Source of the DNA: Bacillota bacterium
GTDB lineage: Bacteria; Vulcanimicrobiota; SpSt-956; JAKJGF01
NCBI GenBank assembly: GCA_022704525.1
Contig: JAKJGF010000012.1
Coordinates: 1 to 41,198 of the forward strand
Reading direction: 5' to 3'
DNA length: 41,198 nucleotides
Both the position numbers and the translations under genes were made by a program. Below the pieces are notes generated by a model that was not told the DNA's origin, searched no databases, and worked only from the letters and a program-made list of their open reading frames with translations. Below are positions 6,978 through 37,943 of the stretch, in pieces; within the stretch, counting starts at the first letter, position 1; each line of letters opens with the position of its first letter.

Positions 6978-7688
6978 CTAAACTTTATACAGGCCATTTT
7001 CATCCTCACCCTGAAATTTATAACCTATTCCATGGACGGTCTTCAGATATTTCGGATTACTGGGCTTATCCTCTATTTTCTGCCTGAGACGCCTCACATG
7101 AACATCCACTGTACGAGTATCTCCAAGATAATCATATCCCCACAGCTGTTCCAAAAGAAAATCTCTGGTAAATACTTTACCTGCATTAGTTGCCAGAAGT
7201 TTCAGTAAATCAAATTCCTTGGGTTTTAAATCAATCTTTTTCTCATTTATTCTAACTTCATGCTTTATCAAGTTTAGATATAAATTATCAAAATGTAATT
7301 CTTCCTGTTCATCAATCTTCTGACTTGTTCTTCGAAGAACAGCCTTTATTCTCGCTATTAATTCTCTTGGACTGAAAGGTTTAAGCACATAATCATCAGC
7401 TCCAAGTTCAAGTCCAAGAATCCTATCGATCTCTTCTCCTCTGGCAGTAACCATTATAATAGGAATTTTAGATTCCTTTCTTAATGTTCTACATACATCC
7501 AGTCCGCCAAGTTCAGGCATCATCAAATCCAGAACCATTAAATCAGGCTTCTCTTCTCTTGCTACCCTGAGAGCCTCCACACCATCAAAAGCTGTAACTA
7601 CTTCATAGCCTTCCTTTTTTAAATTAAACTTCATTAATTCAACAATATTACGTTCATCATCAACAACTAATATTTTTTCACGTGCCAA
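6978..7688 (-). CDS. OmpR/PhoB-family response regulator
   Basis: 236 residues. The receiver domain (~1-120) has the acidic pair D10/D11 (ILVVDDERN), phospho-acceptor D54 (LMVLDLMMPE), the conserved Thr/Ser (IIMVTARG) and Lys (DDYVLKPFSPREL). The C-terminal winged helix (~135-230) ends TVDVHVRRLRQKIED and YLKTVHGIGYKF. It is probably phosphorylated by the kinases at 5864 and 4629. The only possible start is TTG at 7688, because a TAA lies just upstream in frame. The strong AAGGAGGT at about 7720 is ~30 bases away and separated by a small hairpin (CTGGTT 7697-7702 / AACCAG 7711-7716), so translation may be controlled. Confidence 0.93.
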   Translation of the reverse strand: MAREKILVVDDERNIVELMKFNLKKEGYEVVTAFDGVEALRVAREEKPDLMVLDLMMPELGGLDVCRTLRKESKIPIIMVTARGEEIDRILGLELGADDYVLKPFSPRELIARIKAVLRRTSQKIDEQEELHFDNLYLNLIKHEVRINEKKIDLKPKEFDLLKLLATNAGKVFTRDFLLEQLWGYDYLGDTRTVDVHVRRLRQKIEDKPSNPKYLKTVHGIGYKFQGEDENGLYKV

Positions 7689-10196: not shown

Positions 10197-11267
10197 TTAT
10201 AAATCTCTCCTTCTCAGGAAAGCCGGTATATCTATCTCTGATGTAGTGAAAATCTGTTTCCTTGGAGGTGCTATTACAGTAGTTTTCTTATTAGTAGGAA
10301 GAACATTTGCTCCTTGTAAACCAAAACCTGTTGCCACAACAATAATCTTAACATCTGCTTCCATAGTTTCATCACAGGCCGTTCCAAAGATAACAGTGGC
10401 TTCTTCATCAACTGCTTCTGATATAAGATCCCCTGCAGCACTAATTTCTGCCAGTGTCAAATCTTCTCCTCCTGTTATATTATATAATACCCCTCTTGCT
10501 CCATTAATGTTTGTTTCAAGAAGTGGACTGGTTATGGCAGCCTTTGCAGCATCGACAGCTCTACTATCCCCTGTGCCGACTCCTATACCCATCCATGCGG
10601 AACCTGCATTACTCATTATGGTCTTAACATCTGCAAAATCAAGATTTATTTCTCCCGGGATAACTATCAAATCTGAAATACCCTGGACAGCCTGTCTTAG
10701 AATATCATCAGCTTCCCTCATAGCTTCCCGAAAGGTAGTTTTCTTTTCAACTACCTGAACCAGCCTCTCATTTGGTATTGTAATCAATGTATCAACTTTA
10801 GATTCAAGTCTTCCAATACCTTCCTCAGCTATTTTCATCTTTTGCCGCAGTTCAAAGGAAAATGGTTTGGTAACAACTCCTACAGTTAAAGCACCTGTAT
10901 TTTTAGCAACTTCAGCTATCACCGATGCTCCTCCGGTACCTGTTCCTCCTCCCATACCTGCAGTAATAAATACCATATCAGCTCCCTGTAAGGCATTTAT
11001 TATATCTTCTCTATTTTCTTCAGCTGCCTGTTGACCTATTTCCGGTCTTGCCCCGGCTCCCAGTCCCCTGGTAAGTTTGGCACCTACCTGAATCTTCAAA
11101 TCTGCCTTACACATATCTAAAGCCTGGGCATCGGTATTTATAGCTATAAATTCAACGCCCTGGACCCCCATATCAATCATACGAGTAACAGCATTACATC
11201 CTCCGCCACCAACACCCACCACCTTGATGATGGCCTGTTTCTCTATATTTAAAACCTGCTGGTCCAT
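10197..11267 (-). CDS. ftsZ: Cell division protein FtsZ
   Basis: Tubulin-like GTPase that forms the division ring. The N-terminal GTP-binding motif ([12 protein letters not shown]), tubulin signature ([11 protein letters not shown]), T7 catalytic loop ([14 protein letters not shown]) and conserved C-terminal peptide ([11 protein letters not shown]) are all intact. The linker between core and tail is short (about 20 residues), so the protein is near the lower end of FtsZ lengths. I prefer the ATG at 11267, with GGGGG about 9 bases upstream; a TTG one codon earlier is possible. It is the last dcw gene. No ftsA lies beside it, so the membrane tether must be encoded elsewhere or be another protein; the FtsA-binding tail is nevertheless conserved. 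Confidence 0.97.
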
Positions 11268-11385
11268 CAAGATATTCCCCCTTTCGACTAGTTTTTATTC
11301 TATATAAATTTTTAATTCCCTTTAAAGTATTTAATTAATAATAATAAATAAAAATAAATAAAATGATAAAGCAGGATTTTTATAT

Positions 11386-11690
11386 CTAATGTTTTACTTT
11401 ATTAGAGAAAAATTCCTCAAATAAGCACCTCCTGATAGCAGCAACATTAGAAAAAACTCTTACTCCGAAGGTAACAATTACTGCAAGATAAAAATCTACA
11501 CCCATTTTATCACCGGTATAAGTTAAAAAAGCTGCCATAAGAATATTAGTAGTAAATCCTAATATAAATGTACAGTATCCAGACCTGCAAGAAACGAGAC
11601 TGATATATATCTGGTATATAAAACAGGAATATTAACAGGTGGAAGGAAATATCCTATTATAAGTCCTATAAATACTCCTAATAAAGGCAT
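11386..11690 (-). pseudogene. sbp: Small basic protein Sbp (DUF1290), frame broken by internal deletion
   Basis: The ATG at 11690, with GGAAGGAG upstream, starts MPLLGVFIGLIIGYFLPP and continues to SFLAGLDTV, then hits TAG at 11559-11561 after 43 codons. In another frame the family C-terminus continues: FILGFTTNILMAAFLTY, GDKMGVDFYLAVIVTFGVRV, SNVAAIRR, ending at the TAG at 11386. Compared with Bacillus Sbp (recalled: LDTLFGGIRA... before FVSGF), about 14 codons plus one base are missing between ~11571 and 11579, so the product is truncated as written. Sbp is a ~110-residue membrane protein encoded next to DUF881 and ftsZ in Gram-positive-like genomes. This may be real loss or an assembly error. 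Confidence 0.8.
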
Positions 11691-11701
11691 AAATAGCAAG
11701 G

Positions 11702-12460
11702 TTATTCTCCTTCCTTATCAGGACTGGCATACTCAAAAACCAGTGGACCATTATAAGCAGGTATCCTGATATCCCTGTATTGTTTTATTTCTATAGACAC
11801 ACCATTTCTAATACTCAAAGCCATAGAATCCATATAACCACCTGTCATTCGTAAAGCAGCTTCCAATTTTTCTGCAGGGCCTATAGCTTTAATCTCATAA
11901 GGAGGTAATAAACGATTTGTATTAACAAGTATGGAAGGCCCCACACAGCGTATAGATGTCGTTGCTATAGCCCTCTGTTCATTAATAGCTATAGCTTCTG
12001 CCCCTGCTGACCAGAGTTCTGTTATAAGACTCCGAAGATCAACATCATGAACTATGAAAAAATATGAATCTTCGTTTACAGGAGGTTTTGAAAGGCTGTC
12101 CTGTAAAATTATAATTATACCTTCTCCTCTGACCGGAATCAGACCTGCTTCAAGTTTGGCCTTTAAAAATTGTTCTCTTAATGTTTTTAAAAGATGCTGG
12201 TCTTCCGCTGTAACCTCATCATAACGATTAAGGCGTTCTCGCTGAGCCTGAACCTCAGCCTGAAGTTTATTTCTTTCCACTTCCAATTCATTAATTATAC
12301 TGGCCAGTTTTGCCACAGGAACTGAAGAATAAGGAAAACCTTCTTTCTGTTGAATCCTGAACTGAATCACAATTAAAATCCCAAGTAATATAAAAGCTAT
12401 AGTTACCGGAATCTGCCAGTGGTTATTACGTTCTGTTTTATTATCCTTCTTTTCTTCCAT
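11702..12460 (-). CDS. DUF881 family membrane protein of the division cluster
   Basis: 252 residues. One N-terminal membrane helix (~19-37, IPVTIAFILLGILIVIQF) is followed by a coiled coil (~50-105, IINELEVERNKLQAEVQAQR) and the DUF881 domain (~110-240: GEGIIIILQDS, FIVHDVDLRSLITELWSAGA, EAIAINEQRAIATTSIRC, GPSILVNTNRLLPPYEIKAI). DUF881 proteins resemble FtsQ/SepF-neighbourhood genes in Firmicutes and Actinobacteria and are thought to act at the membrane in division; their biochemical role is unknown. The ribosome site GAGGA is well placed. It starts 5 bases after ftsQ and ends 11 bases before sbp. Confidence 0.9.
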   Translation of the reverse strand: MEEKKDNKTERNNHWQIPVTIAFILLGILIVIQFRIQQKEGFPYSSVPVAKLASIINELEVERNKLQAEVQAQRERLNRYDEVTAEDQHLLKTLREQFLKAKLEAGLIPVRGEGIIIILQDSLSKPPVNEDSYFFIVHDVDLRSLITELWSAGAEAIAINEQRAIATTSIRCVGPSILVNTNRLLPPYEIKAIGPAEKLEAALRMTGGYMDSMALSIRNGVSIEIKQYRDIRIPAYNGPLVFEYASPDKEGE

Positions 12461-12465
12461 TTTTC

Positions 12466-13317
12466 TTATTCCTCTTTATGGACATCAAGGTTAGAACTAA
12501 TATTATTATTCTTTACAGGTTTATTTAACTTGAGAACAAATCTCTTATATCTCATATCAACAAAATTTACATCTAAATGTTTATCTTTAAGAGTTTGCAA
12601 AATAGAAGGAATGAGAGATAATTTATTTTCTAAATCGTCTTTTTCAGATCCAATATTAAATTTAATCTTATACTGTGAATAAAGTATTATATTACCTGAT
12701 TCATCAATTTCAATCTCAGGAAAATTCTCTCTCATCATAGAATCATAAGATTTTAAACAGCTTAAAAGAAGGTCTAAATTATTAATCTTCAATTTATTAC
12801 CAGGCAAATTTGTTCTTTCATCCAGACCTCTTATTAAAGGGAAATCCCATCTCTCCAGAATCTCAACATTTGAAACTATAATCCCTTCTTCATCAATATA
12901 AAAAGATTTATCTCCTGATTTTACCATAGCAATAGGGACTCTTTCTTTAATATTTATTATAATTCTATCAGGAAGTTCGAACTGTAATTCTACATCACTG
13001 ATCCAGGGTATAGATTTTAATCGAGAAATTATTTTACTCTCACCTGTATCACCAATATCGAAAATAATATACCATATATTTTTCCTGACAACACCGGATT
13101 GTTCAACAATCTTTTCTACAGGAATATATTTATTCCCCAGAACTGCAATTTCTCTAATGAGAAACAAATCTGATTTACAAAATACAAACTGTGTTATAAA
13201 TAAAATAATTATTATAATAAATTTCCTGTAAGAGTCTTCCTTTTCAACAGAAGAGACTTTTCCACCTTCAATTACACGAAATTTTCTTTTCTCCTGTCCT
13301 ATAATTTCTTTATTCAA
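12466..13317 (-). CDS. ftsQ: Cell division protein FtsQ/DivIB
   Basis: 283 residues, single-pass membrane protein of the divisome FtsQLB subcomplex. A basic cytoplasmic tail (~30 residues) is followed by a membrane helix (~32-46, FIIIIILFITQFVFC), a POTRA domain (~53-125: LFLIREIAVLGNKYIPVEKI, IPWISDVELQFELPDRIIIN, IKERVPIAMV) and the beta domain (~125-260: FYIDEEGIIVS, FPLIRG). Start is TTG at 13317 with GGAG 8-9 bases upstream. It lies 12 bases downstream of ftsW; murG, murC and murB, which often sit between ftsW and ftsQ, are absent. Confidence 0.9.
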   Translation of the reverse strand: MNKEIIGQEKRKFRVIEGGKVSSVEKEDSYRKFIIIIILFITQFVFCKSDLFLIREIAVLGNKYIPVEKIVEQSGVVRKNIWYIIFDIGDTGESKIISRLKSIPWISDVELQFELPDRIIINIKERVPIAMVKSGDKSFYIDEEGIIVSNVEILERWDFPLIRGLDERTNLPGNKLKINNLDLLLSCLKSYDSMMRENFPEIEIDESGNIILYSQYKIKFNIGSEKDDLENKLSLIPSILQTLKDKHLDVNFVDMRYKRFVLKLNKPVKNNNISSNLDVHKEE

Positions 13318-13329
13318 AAAATATACTCC

Positions 13330-14556
13330 TTATAATCTTGAATATAGCCTTTTATTATAAGTTTTTTCCCTGGAAATCTTCCTTAAAGACTTTTCAAGTT
13401 TTACTTCTCTCCTTTCAGGTTCTTTCAAAGGAGGTGAGGCAGAAATCTTAAGTACAAGCCCAACAGAACATAAAGATACAATCATAGAGGTACTGCCAAA
13501 ACTGATAAAAGGCAAAGTCATACCTGTAAGAGGCAAAAGTCCTGAAGCAACAGACATATTCACAAAAGCCTGTATAGCTATACTACCCGTAAGACCTGCT
13601 GCCAGAAGAAAAGAAAATGAATCTTTTCTGGAAAGAGCTATTCTAAAACCTGAATAAATAAAAATCAAAAAAAGCATAATTGTAAATAAACACCCTGCAA
13701 AACCAAGTTCTTCCCCTATAATAGCAAAAATAAAATCTGTATGCTGTTCAGGAAGATAAAATAATTTCTGTCTGCTCTGGCCAATTCCCATCCCCCATAA
13801 CCCCCCTGAACCAAGAGCCAGCAAAGATTGTATTATCTGAAAACCGGAAGATTCCGGATCCTTCCAGGGATTAACAAATGACATCATACGTGCCATTCTA
13901 TAAGGTTTCTCTATAACCTGAAAGATACCAATTCCCAACCCTATGATAAATATGCTGATTAAATGAAAAGCTCTTGTCCCGGCAATATAAAGCATAAACA
14001 TAAAGATTAATCCGATAGCTATAATGGTACCCAGATCAGGTTGCATTTCTATTAAAAGAAATATAATACCCACTAGAAAAAGTAAAGGAAATACTCCCAG
14101 CCAGAAACTCTTAACCTTTTTTTTACTTTCCGACAGATAAGAAGACATAAAAAGTACCAGAGATAATTTACATAATTCCGATGGTTGCAAAGAAAAGCCT
14201 GCCAATTCTAACCATCTTTTAGAGCCATTGCGCTCAACACCAATAAAAAGTACAAGTGCCAGTAAAATTATAGATAACAACACAAAGGGTAAAGACATTT
14301 TCTTTATAAATTCCAGCCTGAGTCTGGTAATAATAAATATACCTGTAAATCCTAATAAAACACCTCTCATCTGTCTTATAAAAAAATAATAACCATTGTA
14401 ATTATAACTAGATGAAGTAGATGCTTCAACAGAACTTGAACTATAGACCATAATAAGGCCGAAACTCACCAGTACAATTGTAACTATAAAAAATCTCCAG
14501 TCTAAATTCTGTCCTTTATTCAATTTAACATCTTTTTCAATATTATCCATATTCAT
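13330..14556 (-). CDS. ftsW: Peptidoglycan glycosyltransferase FtsW
   Basis: 408 residues, SEDS family, about ten membrane segments. SEDS proteins polymerise lipid II glycan strands, with FtsW pairing with the class B PBP FtsI at the septum. Motifs: LIMVYSSSSVEAS near the start, KRWLELAGFSLQPSEL, EMQPDLGTIIAIGLIF, NPWKDPESSGFQIIQSLLAL, GSGGLWGMGIGQSRQKLFYL, PEQHTDFIFAIIGEELGF and LPLTGMTLPFISFGSTSM near the end. The start overlaps the murD stop by 4 bases (ATGA), a sign of coupling. The C-terminal ~40 residues are basic and cytoplasmic. Confidence 0.96.
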   Translation of the reverse strand: MNMDNIEKDVKLNKGQNLDWRFFIVTIVLVSFGLIMVYSSSSVEASTSSSYNYNGYYFFIRQMRGVLLGFTGIFIITRLRLEFIKKMSLPFVLLSIILLALVLFIGVERNGSKRWLELAGFSLQPSELCKLSLVLFMSSYLSESKKKVKSFWLGVFPLLFLVGIIFLLIEMQPDLGTIIAIGLIFMFMLYIAGTRAFHLISIFIIGLGIGIFQVIEKPYRMARMMSFVNPWKDPESSGFQIIQSLLALGSGGLWGMGIGQSRQKLFYLPEQHTDFIFAIIGEELGFAGCLFTIMLFLIFIYSGFRIALSRKDSFSFLLAAGLTGSIAIQAFVNMSVASGLLPLTGMTLPFISFGSTSMIVSLCSVGLVLKISASPPLKEPERREVKLEKSLRKISREKTYNKRLYSRL

Positions 14557-15944
14557 CTTACAATTCTATTTTTCAAATTCTTGACTGCCTGAATGAATTT
14601 ATCTCCCCGGTCATCAGCATTTTTAAACATATCAAAACTTGCACCACCGGGAGATAATAACACAACATCACCCTTTTCAGCTATAGAATAAGCTCTTTTC
14701 ACTGCATCCTCTATGGTAGAAGCCCTCATTATCTGCAAAAGGCCATTTTGAGAACAGTAGTTATATAAAATATCACTGGTAGTACCTATTAAAATAAGAC
14801 CTTTCACACGTCGAGCTATAAACTTGCATAGTTCAGAAAAATCCAGTTTTTTATCAACACCACCGGCAATTAAAATTACCGGTTCTTTAAATGTATTAAG
14901 AGCAGCCATAACAGCATCGGGATTTGTACCTTTAGAATCATCAATAAAATAAACACCTTCTATGTCAGTAACGAATTCCATTCGATGCCTTAAAGTCTTA
15001 AAATTATGTAAACTTTCAAGAATAGAATGTGATGGCACTTTATATATAAGAGCTACAAGCATTGCAGCCATAATATTCTTCAAATTATGTTCACCCTGAA
15101 GAGGTATATCCTGGATATTACATATCTCACAATGAGAAGATCCATTTTTATAATATATTGCATTGTTATGAAGAAATATACCATTTTTAAGCTGAGCACG
15201 ACTGCTAAAAAATAAAACATCTGCTTCAATCTTATCAACTATACTCATAAGCAGGGGATCATCATAATTAATTAAAACATAGTCTCCCTTTTTTTGCTGT
15301 GTAAATATACGACATTTGTAATTTAAATAATTTTCCAGACTGCCATGTCTATCTAAATGGTCAGAACTTATATTAAGCAACAAACTAATATAAGGTCTGA
15401 AGTGTTTTACAAGTTCAAGCTGAAAACTACTTACTTCAGCTACAATCAGCTGCTCTTTTTTTGCATTATAAGCTTTCTCAACAAGAGGTATTCCTATATT
15501 ACCTCCTACTATTACATCCCATCCAGCTAAAGAGAGAAAATTACCTATCAATGTAGTAGTTGTAGATTTACCATTAGTTCCTGTAACAGCTATAAAAGGA
15601 GCTTTAGAAAGCTGAAATGCCAGTTCCAGCTCACTCACAACCGGTATACCATTATCTTTTATATTTTTTACTGCTGGATTCTCTACCGATATTCCGGGAC
15701 TTATAACTACAAGATCCTTATCTTTCCAGACTTTATCAGTATGTATACCCACTTCATAAGCTATACCCAGTCTGTCTAAAAGGGAAGTAGTTTCCTGAAG
15801 TTTACTTCTATCTGCAGAATCACTTAAAAAAACATCAATATTCCTGGAAGAGAAAAATCTACCTACTTCAAGACCACTTTTACCCATTCCAAGAACAGAA
15901 ACTCTCTTTAATTTATTTATATCTATCAATCTATTATTCCTCAT
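14553..15944 (-). CDS. murD: UDP-N-acetylmuramoyl-L-alanine--D-glutamate ligase MurD
   Basis: 463 residues, cytoplasmic Mur ligase adding D-glutamate to UDP-MurNAc-L-Ala. The N-terminal Rossmann-like domain carries VLGMGKSGLEVGRFF. The ATP loop is VTGTNGKSTTTTLIG, and the central domain has NISSDHLDRHGSLENYLNYK. The C-terminal domain holds DDSKGTNPDAVMAAL and a late LLSPGGASFDMFKNADDRGD motif typical of MurD. It overlaps mraY upstream (4 bases) and ftsW downstream (4 bases). Confidence 0.96.
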   Translation of the reverse strand: MRNNRLIDINKLKRVSVLGMGKSGLEVGRFFSSRNIDVFLSDSADRSKLQETTSLLDRLGIAYEVGIHTDKVWKDKDLVVISPGISVENPAVKNIKDNGIPVVSELELAFQLSKAPFIAVTGTNGKSTTTTLIGNFLSLAGWDVIVGGNIGIPLVEKAYNAKKEQLIVAEVSSFQLELVKHFRPYISLLLNISSDHLDRHGSLENYLNYKCRIFTQQKKGDYVLINYDDPLLMSIVDKIEADVLFFSSRAQLKNGIFLHNNAIYYKNGSSHCEICNIQDIPLQGEHNLKNIMAAMLVALIYKVPSHSILESLHNFKTLRHRMEFVTDIEGVYFIDDSKGTNPDAVMAALNTFKEPVILIAGGVDKKLDFSELCKFIARRVKGLILIGTTSDILYNYCSQNGLLQIMRASTIEDAVKRAYSIAEKGDVVLLSPGGASFDMFKNADDRGDKFIQAVKNLKNRIVR

Positions 15945-16912
15945 TTTCCAATTGCTTTCATTACCCAGAATAAATTCAAGCCACCTATAGCAAATAACAT
16001 TGAAACAAGACAGAATCTAACTGTAATAGTAGTTTCATGATAACCCAATTTTTCAAAATGATGATGTATGGGGCTCATTTTAAAAACCCTCTTTCCAGTA
16101 GTTTTATAAGATATTACCTGTATAATTACAGATAACATCTCTAAGACAAAAATTCCTCCCACTACTATAATAAGCAATTCAAGCCTCAAAAGTATAGCCA
16201 TAACAGCAATAGCACCACCAAGCGTAAGAGAACCAGTATCACCCATAAATAATCTTGCCGGATAAACATTAAGCCATAAAAAACCCATACAGATTCCGGT
16301 AAGCACAATTCCTCCCAGAGCTAATCCCTTATATTCCATCATAAAAGCCATAAAACTGAAGGTAATAGCAGAAACAGAAACAGTACTGGAAGCAAGGCCA
16401 TCCAGACCATCTGTAAAATTTACAGCATTTACAGTGGCAGTAAAAGCAAGAATATCCAGCACTATCCGCCATATGCCAAGATTTACTTCTCCTATAAAGG
16501 GAACAAGGATAAAGGTTTCTCCTTTACTATAAAGCCATAAGGCAAGGCCCGCAGCTAAAAGAAGTTGACAGGCCATTTTTTCCCTGGCCCGAAACCCCAT
16601 AGATCTTTTCTTTACAACCTTAAGCCAGTCATCTATGAAGCCTATAAAACCACTTATAAGGGAAACTATCATAAATACTACTAACTCAGGAGTCACTCCT
16701 ACCAGGAGAGAAACAACAATTACTAATATAAAAGGGAAAATAATTCCCCCCATAGTAGGTGTCCCGGCCTTGGATAAATGCATTTCCGGACCTTCCGGAC
16801 GTATATACTGACCAAACTTAAGTTTCTGCAGATATGGTATAAGTATATAATCGCCAATGGCAGTTAATAAAAAAGCTATAGGCCATATAAACAAAATCTT
16901 ATTTATAAACAC
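15941..16912 (-). CDS. mraY: Phospho-N-acetylmuramoyl-pentapeptide transferase MraY
   Basis: 323 residues, about ten membrane segments. It makes lipid I from UDP-MurNAc-pentapeptide and undecaprenyl phosphate on the inner membrane face. Diagnostic motifs: GPEMHLSKAGTPTMGGIIF, FIDDWLKVVKKRSMGFRAR, NAVNFTDGLDGLASS (catalytic Asp region), RLFMGDTGSLTLGGAIA and MSPIHHHFEKLGYHE. Start is GTG at 16912, with GAGGAAG 7 bases upstream inside the end of murF; the genes overlap by 10 bases. Confidence 0.97.
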   Translation of the reverse strand: MFINKILFIWPIAFLLTAIGDYILIPYLQKLKFGQYIRPEGPEMHLSKAGTPTMGGIIFPFILVIVVSLLVGVTPELVVFMIVSLISGFIGFIDDWLKVVKKRSMGFRAREKMACQLLLAAGLALWLYSKGETFILVPFIGEVNLGIWRIVLDILAFTATVNAVNFTDGLDGLASSTVSVSAITFSFMAFMMEYKGLALGGIVLTGICMGFLWLNVYPARLFMGDTGSLTLGGAIAVMAILLRLELLIIVVGGIFVLEMLSVIIQVISYKTTGKRVFKMSPIHHHFEKLGYHETTITVRFCLVSMLFAIGGLNLFWVMKAIGK

Positions 16913-18264
16913 TCAAGGACTTCCTCCATCTGCATGCCCCTGGAACCTTTTACAAGTAATACATCTCCTGGTTGCAGAATATCTTTTAATTTTTTAACCA
17001 GACTTACTTTATCAGCAAAAGATTGGGCATCTATTCCCATAGAAGAAGCAGTTTCTACTGTATAATGACTCAAAGGTCCACAAGTCATTAAATAATTTAT
17101 TCTGGCTTCTGAAACCCACTCTCCCACCTTTCTATGAGATGAAATTCCTTCTTCCCCTAATTCCAGCATATCACCAAGTACTGCTATCTTTCGTCTATCT
17201 GGAAAATATCTGTATATTGTATCAAGAATACTTTTAACGGCCATAGGATTCGAGTTATATGTATCATCTATAATTGTAATATCGTTTTTATTCTGAATTA
17301 TCTTTGTCCTACCTGATAAAGGTGGTATAAAAGACTTAAGGACATCAGAGAGAAGAAGGTCTTCAATTAAATAAGAAGCAACAGAAACTGCAGCCAGAAG
17401 ATTATAAATATTATGATGACCTATCATAGGGAAAAAAATCCTTTCAGTCTTTCCTTTAAAATGAATATCCAGTTCTGTACCATAAAAACCGGCATTTTGA
17501 ATATTACCCGGAAAAATATCTGCTTCCTCTGAAAAACCAAAAGAATTTATTTTACATGATACCTTACGGAGAAGAAACTCAAAGTAATCATTATCTCTGT
17601 TCAAAACTGCAAGACCTTCCGAAGGAAGACTTTCCAGGAGTTCAGCCTTTGCTTTTGCTATATTCTCCCTTGAACCAAGTCTCCCTATATGAGCTTCTCC
17701 AATATTAGTGATAACACCTATATGGGGTTGTGCTATATGAGAAAGCTCTTTTATTTCTCCATGCCCCCTCATGGCAAATTCCAAAACCACACACTCATGA
17801 TGAGGTGAAAGATCAAGCAAAGTTCTGGAGACACCTATCTCATTATTAAAGTTTTCCTGTGATTTTAAAATGTACTTAAACTTTTGTCCCAGAAGAGTAG
17901 CTATAAGCTCTTTAGTGGTTGTCTTTCCATTACTTCCAGTAACAGCAATTACAGGAAGAGAAAATTTTTCCCTATAGACCCTGGCTATATCCTCATAGGC
18001 TTTAAGGGTATCTGAAACTGATATTATAACCTCACCGGGAAGATCGATACAATCCTTTCTGGAAGTTATAAACCCGGCGGCGCCGGCTTTAAGAGCTTCC
18101 TTTATAAAATTATGACCATCAAAATTCTCTCCCCTGAGAGGAATAAAGAGATTACCTTTCTTTAAAGTCCTCGTATCTGTAGAAACTCCATTAAATTCAA
18201 AATTGGGATGTCCTCTCTCTATTACACCATCTATAAAACTTACAAAATCTCTTACCTGTAACAT
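16903..18264 (-). CDS. murF: UDP-MurNAc-tripeptide--D-alanyl-D-alanine ligase MurF
   Basis: 453 residues. Adds D-Ala-D-Ala to UDP-MurNAc-tripeptide, the last cytoplasmic precursor step. The N-terminal domain has VSTDTRTLKKGNLFIPLRG and ENFDGHNFIKEAL. The ATP loop is VTGSNGKTTTKELIATLL, followed by NFNNEIGVSRTLL and EFAMRGHGEI. The C-terminal domain has DDTYNSNPMAVKSIL, AVLGDMLELGEEG and LLVKGSRGMQMEEV. Start ATG with AGGAAG six bases upstream, inside the murE stop region. Its intact N-terminal motif (GENFDGHNF) is the equivalent of the motif deleted from murE. Confidence 0.96.
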   Translation of the reverse strand: MLQVRDFVSFIDGVIERGHPNFEFNGVSTDTRTLKKGNLFIPLRGENFDGHNFIKEALKAGAAGFITSRKDCIDLPGEVIISVSDTLKAYEDIARVYREKFSLPVIAVTGSNGKTTTKELIATLLGQKFKYILKSQENFNNEIGVSRTLLDLSPHHECVVLEFAMRGHGEIKELSHIAQPHIGVITNIGEAHIGRLGSRENIAKAKAELLESLPSEGLAVLNRDNDYFEFLLRKVSCKINSFGFSEEADIFPGNIQNAGFYGTELDIHFKGKTERIFFPMIGHHNIYNLLAAVSVASYLIEDLLLSDVLKSFIPPLSGRTKIIQNKNDITIIDDTYNSNPMAVKSILDTIYRYFPDRRKIAVLGDMLELGEEGISSHRKVGEWVSEARINYLMTCGPLSHYTVETASSMGIDAQSFADKVSLVKKLKDILQPGDVLLVKGSRGMQMEEVLECL

Positions 18265-18267
18265 AAA

Positions 18268-19753
18268 CTACTTCCTGCCAGCCAATTCAAAATATTCTCT
18301 TATAATCTCACTATCATCAAAATGAACTGTTTTATCAGCAAATATTTGATAATCTTCATGACCTTTACCGGCTACAATAACACAATCTCCTCTGTCTGCT
18401 ATGTCCAAAGCTTTTTCTATAGCACGTTTTCTATCAGGTTCCACGACATATCTGGAAGTATTTGTTATACCTGCCTCTATATCCCTTATAATAGCGAGGG
18501 GATCCTCAGACCTGGGATTATCAGATGTTATAATAATATAATCAGACAACGTTACACCAATATGCCCCATAACGGGACGTTTGGATTTATCCCTGTCTCC
18601 GCCACATCCAAAAACAGTAATAATTCTCCCCTTTGTAAAAGCTCTGGCAGATTGAAGAACTTTTTTCAGTCCATCAGGAGTATGAGCATAATCTACAATA
18701 CAAGTAAAATCCTGTTCCCCATAAACAGGATATATACGCCCTTTCACAGGTGGAAGTTCTTCTATGGCCTCTTTTATCAAAGATAAATCTATATTCTGAG
18801 CCAGACCTGCAGCTATAGCAGCCAGAGCATTATACACATTAAACACACCTATTAACTTTAAATTAAAATTGTAAACATGTCCATCCCGGTTTAAATTAAA
18901 CCTGGTTCCCCCTGGAGCACAAGAAACATCATAAGCCATAAGGATATTTCCCTGTTCTCTATAAAGCATATTCGTTTTTTCATTCATAAGACCATAAATA
19001 AATTTTTGCCCATTTCCATGGGGTAAAAGTTTTATAACTTCAGGATCATCTTTATTGAAAACAGAGAAAACCTCTTTCTCTGAAATAAATTCTTTCTGTA
19101 AAGATAAAAAACTGGCTTTAACCTTCCAGTAATCTTCCAGAGTAGAATGAAAATCCAGATGATCCTGAGAAAAATTTGTATAAATAACTCCAGTGAAGAA
19201 TGCATTCCAGACTCTATAAAGAGAAAGAGCATGAGAGGATACTTCCATAGCGACTGTATCCACACCATCCAATACCATCTTATAAAATATTTCCTGTAAA
19301 TCAAGAGACTCAGGTGTCGTGTTTTTGGTCTTTTCTGTCTTATCATCTATTTTAATTTCCATAGTACCAATAAGACCTGTCTTAAAACCAGCTTTTTTCA
19401 TAATATGATCTATCATATAAGTCGTTGTAGTTTTACCATTGGTTCCTGTCACTCCATAGACTTTTAATCTGGATGACGGATGATTATAACAAGCTGCGCC
19501 AAGTTCAGAAAGAGCTTTTCTGGTATTATCAACAACTACAAGTTCCGCCTGTCCATTAAGTAATAAAGGTTTCTCTGAAACTATTATTCTCGCTCCCTGT
19601 GATAGTGCCTGAGAGACATAATTATGTTTTAAAACCCTTTATACATATAAATATATCACCCGGTTTAACTTTTCTGGAATCATAAGATAAACCAGCAGGC
19701 AAATTTTTACTGGCAGACCAGCTGACTTCCTTCAATAAATCTGTGTATTCCAC
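18268..19753 (-). pseudogene. murE: UDP-MurNAc-tripeptide synthetase MurE, frameshifted near codon 42
   Basis: The intact protein would add the third stem-peptide residue. GTG at 19753 (AAGG 5 bases upstream, 16 bases after ftsI) starts VEYTDLLKEVSWSASKNLPA, and SRKVKPGDIFICIKGFKT runs to a TAA at 19622-19624 after 43 codons. The other frame continues HNYVSQALSQGARIIVSEKP without a stop to VTGTNGKTTTTYM (ATP loop) and onward to 18268. A MurE normally reads G-F-x-x-D-G-H here; exactly 8 bases (encoding most of T-D-G) are missing between two ACA triplets. The rest is normal: EVSSHALSLYRV, DYAHTPDGLKKVL, DNPRSEDPLAIIRDI (the DNPR motif found in diaminopimelate-adding enzymes) and AGKGHEDYQ. An internal start at 19452 could only make a protein without the N-terminal domain. 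murE is essential, so an assembly error is a serious possibility. Confidence 0.85.
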
Positions 19754-19769
19754 CTGTTCCTTACCCCGT

Positions 19770-21515
19770 TTACTCTTTTTTCAAAGCAGTATCCTGTTTA
19801 TCTATATATTTCTCGGAAGGTACACCCATATACCAGAGAGATTCCCTCCCAACTTCGCCAAATACAGGAGCAGCAACATAACCACCCCAATAAACTCCCC
19901 GGGCTTCATCGATTTTAACAATCATAACCAATCTGGGATTACGACTCGGCACAAATCCCACAAAAGAACTTATATATTTGTTCGCTGAATAAACACCACC
20001 ATCCACTATCTGGGCAGTTCCTGTTTTACCGGCAACAGAATAACCCGGAATTTGAGCCTTTTTACCTGTTCCATCAGAAATAACTTCCTCTAATATAGTT
20101 ACTATTTTCTCTGTAGTGGAAGGTTTTAATATTACATCTTCCACCTCGGGTGTAAATGTTTTAACTACATGTCCATCAGAGCTCAATATCTCCTTTACAA
20201 GCATAGGACGCATTATTTTCCCACCATTTGAAATAGCCGCCACAGATCTTACAAGCTGCAGGGGAGTAACTGAAATACCCTGTCCAAATGCTATAGTTGC
20301 CAGACTGGATACTGACCAATCTTCAGGATTCAGAACAATCCCTTCCCCTTCTCCTGGTAATTCTATTCCAGTAAGAGAACCAAAACCAAATTTTTTTATA
20401 TAATCAAAATAAATATTTGTTCCTATTTTCATACCTATACCGACAGAACCGGTATTAAAAGAATATTTTATTATATCTTTTATATTTTCATAACCAAATT
20501 CACTTGCAAGTCCATCATTGGCATTATAAATAGTCCATCCTCCCACCTGCATAGAGTTCCCACAGGGGAATACATCAGTCATAGAAACCTTACCGCAATC
20601 CAGAGCAGCCGCTGCCAGAATAATCTTAAATGTAGATCCTGGTTCATAAGAATCACAGACACCTCTATTCCTCAAAACAGATTTAGGAGTAGATGTATAT
20701 TTATTAATATCAAAGTTCGGATAATTGGCCAGAGCCAGAATTTCCCCTGTCTGAGGGTCCATAACAATTATAGTACCACTCCTGGCTTTATACTTTTTTA
20801 TAGCCTTCGAAAGTTCTGATTCTGCAAGGTACTGAATAAATTTATCTATGGTTAACACAAGATTACAACCATCTGTTGCAGGTCTGAGCTCCCTTTTTCC
20901 CTGAGGAATAGCCCTGCCGAAATTATCACATTCAGCTTTCAATAATCCGGCTTTACCTGTAAGATAATTCTCATAAATAGCCTCTATCCCGTCCAGTCCC
21001 TGATCATCTATTCCCGTATAACCAATTATATGACAGGCAAGATTATGATTGGGATAAAAACGTTTACCTGTCTCTTCTTTCAGTAAATATATTCCCTCTA
21101 TATTCAATTTCTTTACTTTACTGGCTATTTCATCACTTACTTTTCTATCAATCCATATAAACTCAACACCCCTGAAGGTCATTTTTTCCAGTAATTCTTT
21201 CTCTGAGATTGAGAGAACTGGTGATAACTGTTTTGCCACTTTTTCCGGTGAATCTATTAACCTGGGGTTTACCCCAATAGAGTAAAGCTGAAGGCTCAAA
21301 GCCAGAATAGATCCATTACGGTCCAGAATTTTTCCCCTCGTACCTGCTATAGGAATATGACAGAGATGTTGTTGAAAAGCCAGTTCTTTATAATGATTTC
21401 CTTTTACTACCTGTGTCTCAAATAAACTAAATATCAAAATTAAAAAAAGAGGCACCATAATATAAAACAATATCTGAACTCGTTGTCTCTCAAAAGGCAA
21501 AACACTGACAGGCAA
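19770..21515 (-). CDS. ftsI: Septal peptidoglycan transpeptidase FtsI/PBP2B
   Basis: 581 residues, class B penicillin-binding protein that cross-links septal peptidoglycan with FtsW. An N-terminal membrane helix (~15-34, ILFYIMVPLFLILIFSLFE) is followed by a PBP dimer domain (~50-210, GTRGKILDRNGSILALS) and a transpeptidase domain with nucleophile Ser294 in the SxxK motif (GSTFK), SxN (SFNTGS) and KTGTA. The tail after KTGTA (SFVGFVPSRNPRLVMIVKID) is complete, and no PASTA domains follow. The most likely start is TTG at 21515, with no clear Shine-Dalgarno; a strong hairpin (21523-21552) ends 7 bases before it. Confidence 0.95.
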   Translation of the reverse strand: MPVSVLPFERQRVQILFYIMVPLFLILIFSLFETQVVKGNHYKELAFQQHLCHIPIAGTRGKILDRNGSILALSLQLYSIGVNPRLIDSPEKVAKQLSPVLSISEKELLEKMTFRGVEFIWIDRKVSDEIASKVKKLNIEGIYLLKEETGKRFYPNHNLACHIIGYTGIDDQGLDGIEAIYENYLTGKAGLLKAECDNFGRAIPQGKRELRPATDGCNLVLTIDKFIQYLAESELSKAIKKYKARSGTIIVMDPQTGEILALANYPNFDINKYTSTPKSVLRNRGVCDSYEPGSTFKIILAAAALDCGKVSMTDVFPCGNSMQVGGWTIYNANDGLASEFGYENIKDIIKYSFNTGSVGIGMKIGTNIYFDYIKKFGFGSLTGIELPGEGEGIVLNPEDWSVSSLATIAFGQGISVTPLQLVRSVAAISNGGKIMRPMLVKEILSSDGHVVKTFTPEVEDVILKPSTTEKIVTILEEVISDGTGKKAQIPGYSVAGKTGTAQIVDGGVYSANKYISSFVGFVPSRNPRLVMIVKIDEARGVYWGGYVAAPVFGEVGRESLWYMGVPSEKYIDKQDTALKKE

Positions 21516-21522
21516 ATAATAA

Positions 21523-21552
21523 CTAATTTCTAAGGGAAACCTTAAAAATTAG
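21523..21552 (-). promoter_or_regulatory. Hairpin directly before the ftsI start codon
   Basis: Minus strand: CTAATTT, one mismatch, TAAGG, loop TTTC, CCTTA, one mismatch, AAATTAG; 12 paired bases in all. The 3' arm ends 7 bases before the TTG start of ftsI, so it covers the place where a ribosome site would lie; the only AAGG is in the 5' arm. No T-run follows, so it is not a standard terminator. A translation control role is inferred. Confidence 0.5.
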
Positions 21553-21629
21553 CCTACACCTCTCTTCTAAAATATATATTTAGAGGGTTCCGGTTTCAGC
21601 TAATAATCTAAAACCTGATACCTGAATAA

Positions 21630-22016
21630 TTATTCTATTAAAGCCAGGTTCTTTTTCTGTTGAAATAATATAACTCTACCATCAAAATCGGGACGATCCA
21701 TACCAAGCTTTATTTTTGCCATAGTTTCTATCCTATCAAGGGATTCAAGGGTATTAACCTGATTAACTAAATTTAAATTCTGATATTCCAGAGCTTCTCT
21801 GGTTACCGTTAGCTCGCAAAGATAATACTGTTTATTCAAAAGCTGTGTCGACTGTTGTATAAGGGAAACAAACAAAATAACCAGTATAATTACCAGTGAT
21901 AAAGTTAACCCCAGAGGAAACTCACTTTCACTCCTCTTAAGAGGGCGAACCTTTGTTTTTTTCTTTGGTTGTTGATCTTTAACTTCTTCTTTCTTTACCC
22001 TTCTTGCTAAAACCAA
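21630..22016 (-). CDS. ftsL: Cell division protein FtsL
   Basis: 128 residues. A basic cytoplasmic tail (~40 residues, rich in Lys/Arg) is followed by one membrane helix (~35-52, LGLTLSLVIILVILFVSLI) and a coiled-coil leucine-zipper-like region (~58-100, ELTVTREALEYQNLNLVNQV) ending with RIETMAKIKLGMDRPD, the usual FtsL/DivIC end motif. Position between rsmH and ftsI confirms the call. Start is TTG at 22016, with GGGGGG about 11 bases upstream. The start overlaps the stop codon of a possible small ORF (22007-22117). Confidence 0.88.
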   Translation of the reverse strand: MVLARRVKKEEVKDQQPKKKTKVRPLKRSESEFPLGLTLSLVIILVILFVSLIQQSTQLLNKQYYLCELTVTREALEYQNLNLVNQVNTLESLDRIETMAKIKLGMDRPDFDGRVILFQQKKNLALIE

Positions 22017-22117
22017 TCTGAAGTTATCCCCCCTTCTATAACTAAATATCTACCACTGACTGCTTCCTCCAACAATTTATACTCAACTCTGGCAGGGGCT
22101 TTCAGGGACTTATCCAC
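22007..22117 (-). CDS. Possible small ORF between rsmH and ftsL
   Basis: The 130-base gap between rsmH and ftsL is open in one frame. From GTG at 22117 it would encode 36 residues (VDKSLKAPARVEYKLLEEAV, then SGRYLVIEGGITSDWF), ending in TAG that overlaps the TTG start of ftsL (TTGGTTTTAG). The open frame continues upstream through IIPDRGRSLW into the end of rsmH with no ATG/GTG/TTG. Composition looks protein-like and the stretch is richer in G+C than its neighbours. Against it: no ribosome site before the GTG and no recognised family. It may instead be a remnant, or a short coupling ORF that brings ribosomes to ftsL. Confidence 0.3.
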   Translation of the reverse strand: MDKSLKAPARVEYKLLEEAVSGRYLVIEGGITSDWF

Positions 22118-22146
22118 CCACAGACTACGGCCCCGGTCTGGTATAA

Positions 22147-23094
22147 TTAAAACTTCTCTAATGCTCTGAGTCTGGCACTGCGAGACCTGGGATTCAACAA
22201 TTCCTCTTCCTTTCCAGGGAAAAGAGGTTTCTTATTAAGTAACCTCACAAGAGGAAATCCTTCGCATTTACATAAAGATAAATCATGTAAACACTTTTTC
22301 ATAGAAGCATCCTTAAAAATTCTTTTTACTATACGATCTTCCAGGGAGTGAAAACTTATCACTACCAGCCTTCCTCCAGATTTAAGAACCTTTAAAGCTT
22401 TCTTTAATCCCTTTTCGAGAGTATCTAATTCTTTATTAAGAAAAATTCTAAGTCCCATAAATGTCTTTGTAGAGGGATGAATTTTCCTCCTTTTTCTTAA
22501 ATTTCTTGAAACCGCTCTAACAACTATATCTGATAATTGTTTGGTAGATAATATCCTGGAAATTTTCCTGGTCTTTACTATTTCCCTGGCTATTTTTCTG
22601 GCATGTTTCTCTTCTCCATAATGATATATAATATAACTTAAATCATCCTCAGAAAAATCATTAACTATATGACTGGCTGTCAAAGACATATTACTGTCCA
22701 TTCTCATATCTAAAGGAGAATCTACCTGAAAAGAAAAACCTCTCCTTGCATCATTTAATTGTGTCGAGGAAATTCCCAGATCAAACAATATACCATCCAC
22801 TTCCTTTATCCCGAAGGACAATAATATTTCATCTAACTCTGAAAAATTACCCTTTACCAGTTTTAAATTCAGGGAAAAATCCCTGGCAAAATCTTCAAAA
22901 GATTTTATTGCTTCAATGTCGCAATCAAGACTGATCAAGGTGCCTCCTGGCAATATAGACTTAAGAATTTCTTTCGAGTGTCCTCCTCCTCCTAAAGTAC
23001 AATCTAAGATCATTTTACCCGGTAAACAATTAAGATAAGAGATAGATTCTTTAAGTAATACCGGTGTATGAACCAGGCATTCCTCTTGTGACAT
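22147..23094 (-). CDS. rsmH: 16S rRNA m4C1402 methyltransferase RsmH (MraW)
   Basis: SAM-dependent methyltransferase for the ribosomal P-site nucleotide C1402. Starts HTPVLLKESISYL; the SAM-binding motif is LDCTLGGGGHSKEIL. Further marks are DGILFDLGISSTQLND, ARRGFSFQVDSPLDMRMD, FMGLRIFLNKELDTLEKGL, GGRLVVISFHSLEDRIVK and NPRSRSARLRALEKF at the end. I chose the ATG at 23094 (MSQEECLVHTP) because AAGGAG lies 7 bases upstream; the frame stays open to 23115. It follows mraZ after 28 bases. Confidence 0.97.
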   Translation of the reverse strand: MSQEECLVHTPVLLKESISYLNCLPGKMILDCTLGGGGHSKEILKSILPGGTLISLDCDIEAIKSFEDFARDFSLNLKLVKGNFSELDEILLSFGIKEVDGILFDLGISSTQLNDARRGFSFQVDSPLDMRMDSNMSLTASHIVNDFSEDDLSYIIYHYGEEKHARKIAREIVKTRKISRILSTKQLSDIVVRAVSRNLRKRRKIHPSTKTFMGLRIFLNKELDTLEKGLKKALKVLKSGGRLVVISFHSLEDRIVKRIFKDASMKKCLHDLSLCKCEGFPLVRLLNKKPLFPGKEEELLNPRSRSARLRALEKF

Positions 23095-23122
23095 AAAATT
23101 TCTCCTTCCTATCACCTCCCGG

Positions 23123-23554
23123 TCATATAAAATACTGGCTCAATACTTTCTTGGAAAGCTTCCTGAACTCTTCACCTTCCTGCAACTGAGACCACTTATC
23201 AGAGCTCCATATCTCAATTCTATCTAAAACACCTGCTACAACTACATTCTCTTTAAGATCAGCATAAGAGATAAGATTATCAGGTAAAACAATTCGCCCC
23301 TGACGATCCATTTGACATTCAACAGAGCTAGAAAAAAAGCGACGAATATAGTCCTGAGCATCTTCGTCGCTTTTTGGCAAAGCTTTTAATTTTTTAACTA
23401 ATTCCTCCCATTCTAAAAGAGGATAAATAAACAAACATTCTTTATCAAGACCAGGAGTGAGATAAAATTTACCTTCCAGATACTTCCTATAAGAAGCAGG
23501 TATAATTACTCTACATTTCTCATCAAGATTACGTTCATAATTCCCAGTAAACAT
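23123..23554 (-). CDS. mraZ: Transcriptional regulator MraZ
   Basis: 143 residues, two SpoVT/AbrB-like MraZ repeats, each with the D-x-x-x-R-x-x-x-P core: LDEKCRVIIPASYR (~10-24) and MDRQGRIVLP (~81-90). MraZ forms ring-shaped oligomers and autoregulates dcw transcription by binding evenly spaced boxes before its own gene. Such boxes are seen here at 23608-23642. First gene of the cluster. Ribosome site is weak. Confidence 0.96.
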   Translation of the reverse strand: MFTGNYERNLDEKCRVIIPASYRKYLEGKFYLTPGLDKECLFIYPLLEWEELVKKLKALPKSDEDAQDYIRRFFSSSVECQMDRQGRIVLPDNLISYADLKENVVVAGVLDRIEIWSSDKWSQLQEGEEFRKLSKKVLSQYFI

Positions 23555-29032: not shown

Positions 29033-31024
29033 GTGAATAATAAAAAAATTATTATACCTATTTTTTTTATAATATTAATATTTTTAATATATCCATCTAT
29101 ATCTTTATCTAAAACTGATTACAGAGAAGAATATGATACAGCTATTAATAAATATTACGAGTTACTTGCTATAGCACGATCCTCGGGTTATAATACGACA
29201 GAAGCAGAAGCTTTGAGAGAACAGGCAAAAGTGACGGAACAGGGAGGATTTTACAGGGCTGCCTTAATATTGATGGAACATGCCATTAAATTACTGGAGG
29301 AAAAATTAGAAGGGAAACCTGATTTCGTATTACCTACCAAAACCCCTGTTCCCTCAGTTAAACCAACACAATACCCGATATCTACAAAAAAACCCCTTCA
29401 AACTTCTACTCCTACCTGGAGACCAACACAGACTCCTGAAGCGACAGAAAAACCAGCTCTTGTTCCAACACAGACTCCTAAAGCGACAGAAAAACCAGCT
29501 CTTGTTCCAACACAGACTCCTGAAGCGACAGAAAAACCAGCTTTTGTTCCAACACAGACTCCTGAAGCGACAGAAAAACCAGCTTTTGTTCCAACACAGA
29601 CTCCTGAAGCGACAGAAAAACCAGCTCTTGTTCCAACACAGACTCCCGGGCATCAAGACATATATACTCCAACTCCTGAAACTCTTTCAAACAGTTTTGA
29701 AAGAAATGAAGGCTATCCCTTTGGTATAAATACTGCACATCAGCCTATATTTAACGAATTACTACCATATTATAAGAAGACTAATGCAAAATGGATACTA
29801 ATTAATGGATTAGTATGGGCTAAAAGAAAGCCACCTGACTGGACTAAAATAGATGAACAGGTAAACCTGCTTTATAATAATGGTTTCTCCGTTATAATGG
29901 AAATAAATATATTACCCACTTCAGATGGTACAGCTTCAGAGTTTCCATCAGATATAGAAGACTACAGTAAATTTATCTTTCGTTCCGTAGCCCGTTATGA
30001 TGGAGATGGAGATTATAATAACGACGGAATAATAGATGGGCCTCCAATGCCAAAAATTAACTACTGGAAGATATTAAATGAACCAGATCTGAATAGATTC
30101 TGGGCAGATACACCGGCAAATTATGCTAAAGTAGTTAAACTATCGGCCGAAAATGCACATAAAGCAAATCCTATGGCAAAAATAATTTTTGGAGGCATCT
30201 CCAATAAAAATACCATTCTTGGTGAAAAAATAAATACAGGTTTTCTTGAAAATCTATTCAAATTTACTTTTCCCGATGGGAAAAAAGTTCAGGATTATCT
30301 GGATTATATGAGTTTTCACTATCATGGCAATTCTAAGGGTTTCAGTGATTTTATGGAAGCTCAAACAGGTATAATGAAAAAATATAATGTAAAAAAACCT
30401 TTCATGATAACAGAACTGGGTTGTCCTGGAGGAGTAAACTTCAGCTTTGAGGATGGGAATTTTCTTTCTGCACCATTGAATAATCAGGCCATAGAAATAG
30501 TCAAAATGCATACACTGGCTTTTTCTTTAGGAGCTGAAAAAGTTTTCTATTATTCTATTTCAGATCAGAAAAAACAATTAAAAGAATCTTCCAATGACAC
30601 AATCTTTGTATCTGAAGAATCAGTAGAGAATATTTATTTACATGATCTATTATCCTATTATGGTCTATTTTATTTTGACTTTGAACCAAAACCATCTATG
30701 GCGTGCTATAAATTTATGGCAGAAAAACTAAAAAATAGAAAAGTAAGCCATGAAATTTTAGGACTGGCAGAAGGAGTCAGATGTTTTGTTTTCATAAAAA
30801 ATAAAAAATTTTCTACTACAACAGATGAACCATTATATATAATATGGAATGAAACAGGTGAAAAACAAATATCTATGAAACTGCCCTGGAAAAAAGCAAA
30901 TTTGAGCAGTTTTATTCTTATTAAAGGAGATGAAGTATATACCAGTGAATTAGAAGCAACAACAAATGGAACATTCGATATACATCTGGTAAAGGAACCA
31001 ATATTACTTGAATTTTCTCCCTGA
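29033..31024 (+). CDS. Secreted clan GH-A-like glycoside hydrolase with 14-residue repeat linker
   Basis: 663 residues, start GTG with AAGGAG 10 bases upstream. The signal segment (KKIIIPIFFIILIFLIYPSI) is followed by a helical region (~30-95), then a Pro/Thr linker with five perfect-length 14-residue repeats (PTQTPEATEKPALV; residues 131-200), which resembles wall-spanning or O-glycosylated linkers. The TIM-barrel domain (~225-600) resembles GH39/GH5-type enzymes: WKILNEPDLNRFW gives the likely acid/base Glu350, and MITELGCPGG the likely nucleophile Glu461. A calcium-loop-like insert (DGDGDYNNDGIIDG) lies just before the first catalytic Glu. It ends with a small beta domain (~600-663). Substrate cannot be told. 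Confidence 0.8.
   Translation: MNNKKIIIPIFFIILIFLIYPSISLSKTDYREEYDTAINKYYELLAIARSSGYNTTEAEALREQAKVTEQGGFYRAALILMEHAIKLLEEKLEGKPDFVLPTKTPVPSVKPTQYPISTKKPLQTSTPTWRPTQTPEATEKPALVPTQTPKATEKPALVPTQTPEATEKPAFVPTQTPEATEKPAFVPTQTPEATEKPALVPTQTPGHQDIYTPTPETLSNSFERNEGYPFGINTAHQPIFNELLPYYKKTNAKWILINGLVWAKRKPPDWTKIDEQVNLLYNNGFSVIMEINILPTSDGTASEFPSDIEDYSKFIFRSVARYDGDGDYNNDGIIDGPPMPKINYWKILNEPDLNRFWADTPANYAKVVKLSAENAHKANPMAKIIFGGISNKNTILGEKINTGFLENLFKFTFPDGKKVQDYLDYMSFHYHGNSKGFSDFMEAQTGIMKKYNVKKPFMITELGCPGGVNFSFEDGNFLSAPLNNQAIEIVKMHTLAFSLGAEKVFYYSISDQKKQLKESSNDTIFVSEESVENIYLHDLLSYYGLFYFDFEPKPSMACYKFMAEKLKNRKVSHEILGLAEGVRCFVFIKNKKFSTTTDEPLYIIWNETGEKQISMKLPWKKANLSSFILIKGDEVYTSELEATTNGTFDIHLVKEPILLEFSP
29423..29648 (+). 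repeat. 42-base tandem repeat, five full copies plus partial
   Basis: Units start at 29423, 29465, 29507, 29549 and 29591, and a partial copy at 29633; each begins CCAACACAGACTCC. They differ only at G/A in the fifth codon after the start (copy 2 has Lys instead of Glu) and C/T in the Leu/Phe codon, so expansion is recent. In frame (14 residues) inside the glycosidase linker. The repeat also keeps reverse frames open, producing false antisense ORFs. Confidence 0.95.
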
Positions 31025-37166: not shown

Positions 37167-37943
37167 TCAAAAATCATAAGAATAGTAAATATGTAAATTT
37201 ACACTTTTTGCAAATTCCTTAACTTTTGAATTACTTACAGACCTTGTTACCAGGACAGGAAATATTTCTTCTTTAAATACATCTTTTAAAGTCTCTATTC
37301 TTTTTCTTATAAATGATTTTATATCATTCTCAGAAAGGACTGTTTTACTCTCACCTATTATGATTATGTCTTTACCTCCTCTTTTGCCTTTCCCAAAGAT
37401 ATTAACCTCAAATTCTCTCTCTTTATTATCTTTTACATAATCTCTTATCAGTCTACCTTCTATAGTAATATTGAAATCTCTTTTCAATAATGCCGGTAAT
37501 GCTTTATATGCTTTATCTTCCAGATTGTATCCAATACTCTGGGCTATACCTCCCATTTGCCTTTTAGTATCATCGTGTTCCTTAACAAGTTTAGTTAGAG
37601 TTTCTGCCAGTTCTGTAACCTTATCTTCTGTCCTTTTCTGGGCTTCTGCCAGTTCTGTAACCTTATCTTCTGTCCTTTTCTGGGCTTCTGCCAGTTCTGT
37701 AACCTTATCTTCTGTCCTTTTCTGGGCTTCTGCCAGTGCTTTCTGTCCTGTTGTTAGTTCCCCTACTTTTATACTTAAATCCTTAACTATATCTTTTAAC
37801 TCATTAAATTCTGTTTTTGTAACAGTATTCTGTATCTCTTCATACATATAGCTCATCATTTCAACTATTTTTTTTGCTGATTTACTATCCATAGTCTCAC
37901 TTAATTCTTCGTACATTTTCATAGTGTTTATCATTTCTATCAC
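37167..37943 (-). CDS. DUF3782-type coiled-coil protein with PD-(D/E)xK nuclease-like domain
   Basis: 258 residues. The N-terminal helical part (~1-65) is followed by a long coiled coil with three exact 14-residue repeats (AEAQKRTEDKVTEL, ~71-112; two heptads each). A C-terminal restriction-endonuclease-like domain (~135-258) has Glu179 (REFEVNIFG), Asp192 (GGKDIII) and Glu198-Ser-Lys200 (IIGESKTVL). This arrangement is known in DUF3782 proteins of cyanobacteria and other bacteria; the activity is unproven. The ATG at 37943 has GGAGG 6-7 bases upstream. Convergent with the ATPase gene; a functional link is only suggested by position. Confidence 0.8.
   Translation of the reverse strand: MIEMINTMKMYEELSETMDSKSAKKIVEMMSYMYEEIQNTVTKTEFNELKDIVKDLSIKVGELTTGQKALAEAQKRTEDKVTELAEAQKRTEDKVTELAEAQKRTEDKVTELAETLTKLVKEHDDTKRQMGGIAQSIGYNLEDKAYKALPALLKRDFNITIEGRLIRDYVKDNKEREFEVNIFGKGKRGGKDIIIIGESKTVLSENDIKSFIRKRIETLKDVFKEEIFPVLVTRSVSNSKVKEFAKSVNLHIYYSYDF
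37615..37740 (-). repeat. 42-base tandem repeat (three copies) in the coiled coil
   Basis: Units at 37615, 37657 and 37699, each 42 bases and essentially identical in DNA (begins GTAACCTTATCTTC on the plus strand). They encode 14-residue double heptads, so copy-number change would lengthen the coiled coil in phase. Same unit length as the unrelated repeat at 29423. Confidence 0.92.

Follow-up and report, generated by a model that had tools for sequence, protein, structure and literature searches.

MurE, the UDP-MurNAc-L-Ala-D-Glu:meso-DAP ligase (TIGR01085), is a normally essential enzyme with solved structures 1e8c, 7b53 and 2wtz. Within the window, that is, the whole 41,198-nucleotide stretch of DNA analysed here, one minus-strand gene resembles this ligase in its domain order, its GTNGKT P-loop, its DNPR motif and its genomic place between ftsI and murF, but differs from it in that the reading frame of domain 1 is broken and the G-x3-D-G-H motif is without its D-G pair. 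The locus also resembles the breaks and gaps of short-read draft assemblies: the loss is isolated, out of frame and in a conserved gene of a draft genome of 407 contigs, its contig carries a second break, and a fragmented genome elsewhere in the phylum has one too. With prfB-type programmed +1 frameshifting, the window murE shares the +1 direction and the presence of a stop codon where the frame would shift, but its site is unconserved, a stimulatory element was not found there and the product would be without two conserved residues.

The N-terminal part of murE (19625..19753, minus strand) comprises 43 codons from a GTG at 19753, which is preceded at about 5 nt by an AAGGA Shine-Dalgarno-like motif recognized by direct inspection. 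It encodes the start of the UDP-binding domain as far as KGFKT and then ends in-frame at TAA. The remainder (18268..19629, minus strand; ~452 codons) is open in the +1 frame from HNYVSQALSQGARI to a TAG at 18268 and encodes the rest of domain 1, Mur_ligase_M, Mur_ligase_C and a DNPR motif of the meso-DAP type. The initial annotation had placed the first 43 codons (19753-19625) and the rest of MurE in separate frames, with the break inside a conserved G-F-x-x-D-G-H segment, and both statements hold: it is the G-x3-D-G-H motif (19620..19640, minus strand) that is interrupted, with D-G absent and ~8 bases missing. The switch of frame was found independently at ~19635 by coding-potential decoding, for which a periodic Markov decoder had been trained on genes of this organism. 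Against Pfam, the N-terminal part gave a weak match to the start of Mur_ligase (E 0.005), and the C-terminal part matched Mur_ligase_M (E 1e-46) and Mur_ligase_C (E 2e-32). The C-terminal part alone scored 478.8 bits against TIGR01085 (cut-off 257.3, profile positions 30-471), which assigns the gene to MurE, and the translation contains both the central ATP-binding motif VTGTNGKTTTT and the C-terminal DNPR motif as SDNPRSEDP. An uninterrupted N-terminal UDP-binding domain with G-x3-D-G-H is not present in the window gene and, given the frame break and the absent D-G pair, the murE of this assembly is a broken copy. Outside the break, neither part shows additional decay and both look like conserved coding sequence. 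The window contains no runs of N, and those of the source assembly are limited to whole contigs of <3 kb.

The size of the loss was estimated from an alignment of the two murE parts with 113 MurE homologues, some of the phylum and some of named genomes; one homologue row was empty at the motif. The motif segment, bounded by the residue preceding its first G and the one that follows the conserved A in the next helix, was of equal length in 112 of 112 homologues. The columns without a residue in the window gene are occupied by D in 107 and by G in 111 of these 112, and no homologue of equal motif length lacks both residues (0/112). Two codons together with the frame offset thus amount to eight missing bases. 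An exact 8-base deletion between two ACA triplets had been proposed earlier; the eight bases are supported by the fixed length of the motif (112/112), whereas the second ACA is not, a single ACA being present at the junction. The direct-repeat deletion and its second ACA are the earlier annotation's reconstruction and cannot be observed in this sequence.

The broken gene sits in a division and cell-wall cluster on the minus strand (window 10197-23554) that includes mraZ, rsmH, an ftsL-like gene, ftsI, murE, murF, mraY, murD, ftsW, an ftsQ-like gene, a DUF881-like gene (named by eye), sbp and ftsZ. Directly upstream, murE adjoins an intact ftsI encoding a penicillin-binding protein (19770..21515, minus strand) and, directly downstream, an intact murF (16903..18264, minus strand); mraY, murD, ftsW, rsmH, mraZ and ftsZ are likewise unbroken. 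No evident ftsA, murG, murC or murB was seen in the interval from ftsW to ftsZ. The source assembly (G000) is a draft obtained from environmental DNA, with a size of 5.04 Mb in 407 contigs and a completeness of 90.9%. A profile search of this assembly, which is thus ~91% complete, detected no second murE, the other matches being murF, murD and weaker Mur-ligase-family members below the cut-off, and a DNA search of the same genome matched only the window itself.

Among the 149 genomes of the phylum, a one-frame murE covering essentially the full model was counted manually in at least 119 genomes other than G000, which is the only genome of its class among those compared. The best matches in named genomes were ~45-47% identical, which places them outside a same-species comparison, and some genomes, such as G028, carry two murE copies. 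No break common to the relatives was found in the 149 phylum genomes, with no member of the same class among them. One further genome, G002 (350 contigs), has a murE frame break without N, in a different place and with ~16 bases missing; this out-of-frame loss (L206 about 7448-7463, contig G002:C244) falls after the P-loop. Apparent breaks in G130 and G133 were rejected as sequence frame breaks, the interruptions sitting at runs of N, and the murE of G027, truncated on first impression only, was intact on inspection. Scattered over the gene and located in draft assemblies, the murE breaks look like assembly faults, unlike a programmed site. An exact search of IMG/VR with the upstream 28-mer gave no match.

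A second gene of the cluster, sbp (DUF1290; 11386-11710, minus strand), is also broken, at a distance of 8 kb from the murE break and on the same contig. Its N-terminal part gives a weak match (E 0.067) to model positions 1-20 and its C-terminal part matches positions 36-86 in another frame, so that the gap in the model and the change of frame correspond to ~46 missing bases. In the 23 relatives having sbp, the DUF1290 domain lies in one frame, from position 1 or 2 to 84-86. Besides sbp, further breaks occur in the ~0.9 Mb of the assembly that was sampled. Frame breaks were observed near the 3' part of a DUF4139 gene (L194 about 3587, G000:C130) and in a clostripain-family (PF03415) gene (L225 about 6633, G000:C98). 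Two joins are possible misassemblies: a response regulator joined to an M16-peptidase-like piece (L135 about 300-800, G000:C1) and the start of a membrane-fusion protein joined to the middle of an ABC ATPase (L127 about 600-1090, G000:C83), both of which are chimeric or truncated and lie in a small contig or close to the end of a contig. The frame-switch detector raised 14 flags in 0.91 Mb, mostly adjacent genes when viewed by eye, and recovered 68% (raw) or 24% (filtered) of simulated 8-base losses, making its rate a rough guide only. All five long essential genes tested in the source assembly, ileS, dnaE, alaS (in a short form), rpoC and secA, were intact; thus, the assembly is not grossly error-ridden and its error load appears moderate. 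Fragmentation of alaS was considered and rejected, the gene being an intact short form with an open frame of 588 residues, and it is accompanied by at least two AlaX-like editing paralogues; the loci of alaS and these paralogues are L254 (G000:C284), L255 (G000:C368) and L257 (G000:C158).

Programmed +1 frameshifting could in principle fuse the two parts into one working protein at AAA-ACA-TAA, where, as in prfB, the frame would have to shift by +1 and a stop codon coincides with the shift, but the product would still be without the conserved D-G pair. The 91 nt of RNA downstream of the site was no more stable than its shuffles (z-score 0.36), a stimulatory structure was not found in it, no such site recurs across the phylum, the G002 break lying elsewhere, and no bacterial +1 site is known to resemble these codons. 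We regard frameshifting as highly improbable, and recoding, one of the options raised in the initial annotation, is disfavoured by the near-invariance of the lost residues, the lack of a phylum-wide site and an RNA fold no better than that of shuffled sequence. It is scarcely credible that a C-terminal protein with a start of its own acts together with the 43-residue peptide: the central and C-terminal domains of the larger part are intact, but the first usable start in its frame is a GTG at 19452, ~60 codons past the break and within the strand of the VTGTNGKT P-loop. That GTG is without a properly spaced ribosome site, no ATG, GTG or TTG occurs in the same frame between the break and this codon, and the coding signal extends upstream of it without any start. 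It is extremely doubtful that +1 recoding across the break, or the assembly of two chains, gives the organism a working MurE whose UDP-binding loop is shortened; if proved, a MurE of either kind, recoded or in two pieces, would be strikingly exceptional for an antibiotic target that is nearly universal.

A recent, true loss-of-function deletion in the strain or a subpopulation, faithfully reported by the assembly, is an unlikely explanation for which the clean and N-free junction, the intact long essential genes and the ability of replication slippage to yield such short deletions all speak. Against it, cells cannot normally do without murE, the searches of the assembly gave no second copy, the remaining wall genes are intact, and a lethal variant would not normally be expected as the consensus; a null allele is hard to square with an intact peptidoglycan pathway, but could represent a strain variant. 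We consider it very unlikely that the window copy is a pseudogene backed by an intact murE in the ~9% of the genome that the assembly lacks, given its canonical operon position and lack of other decay, even with a completeness of 90.9% and two copies known in genomes such as G028. Real loss with a second murE elsewhere had been another of the four proposed options, and neither the profile nor the DNA search of this ~91% complete assembly revealed such a copy. One of the remaining two options, assembly error or population heterogeneity, fits best, favoured by the similarly broken sbp 8 kb away and the unrelated murE break in the fragmented G002. The gene is probably an ordinary murE of the meso-DAP-adding type, present in a single copy, whose consensus has lost ~8 bases through a local fault of assembly or, more rarely, through capture of a minority allele. 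The missing bases would be present in the organism itself, and its cells in all likelihood produce a normal MurE, ~498 residues long. Against an assembly error, a clean 8-base loss is atypical of base-calling errors, and the long essential genes are intact; the other split genes of the assembly could be true pseudogenes. A search for literature on indels in metagenome-derived genomes returned nothing usable.

For the murE break, the evidence favours a fault of assembly or a minor strain variant over a new biological mechanism, and frame breaks in essential genes of draft assemblies need checks against family spacing, relatives and neighbouring genes before a biological reading. Elsewhere in the window, tandem repeats of PTQTPEATEKPALV units were observed at 29354-29740 (plus strand), inside the gene of a glycoside-hydrolase-like protein (29033-31024), and near-identical repeats (AEAQKRTEDKVTEL) at 37471-37851, within that of a coiled-coil-like protein (37167-37943, minus strand).
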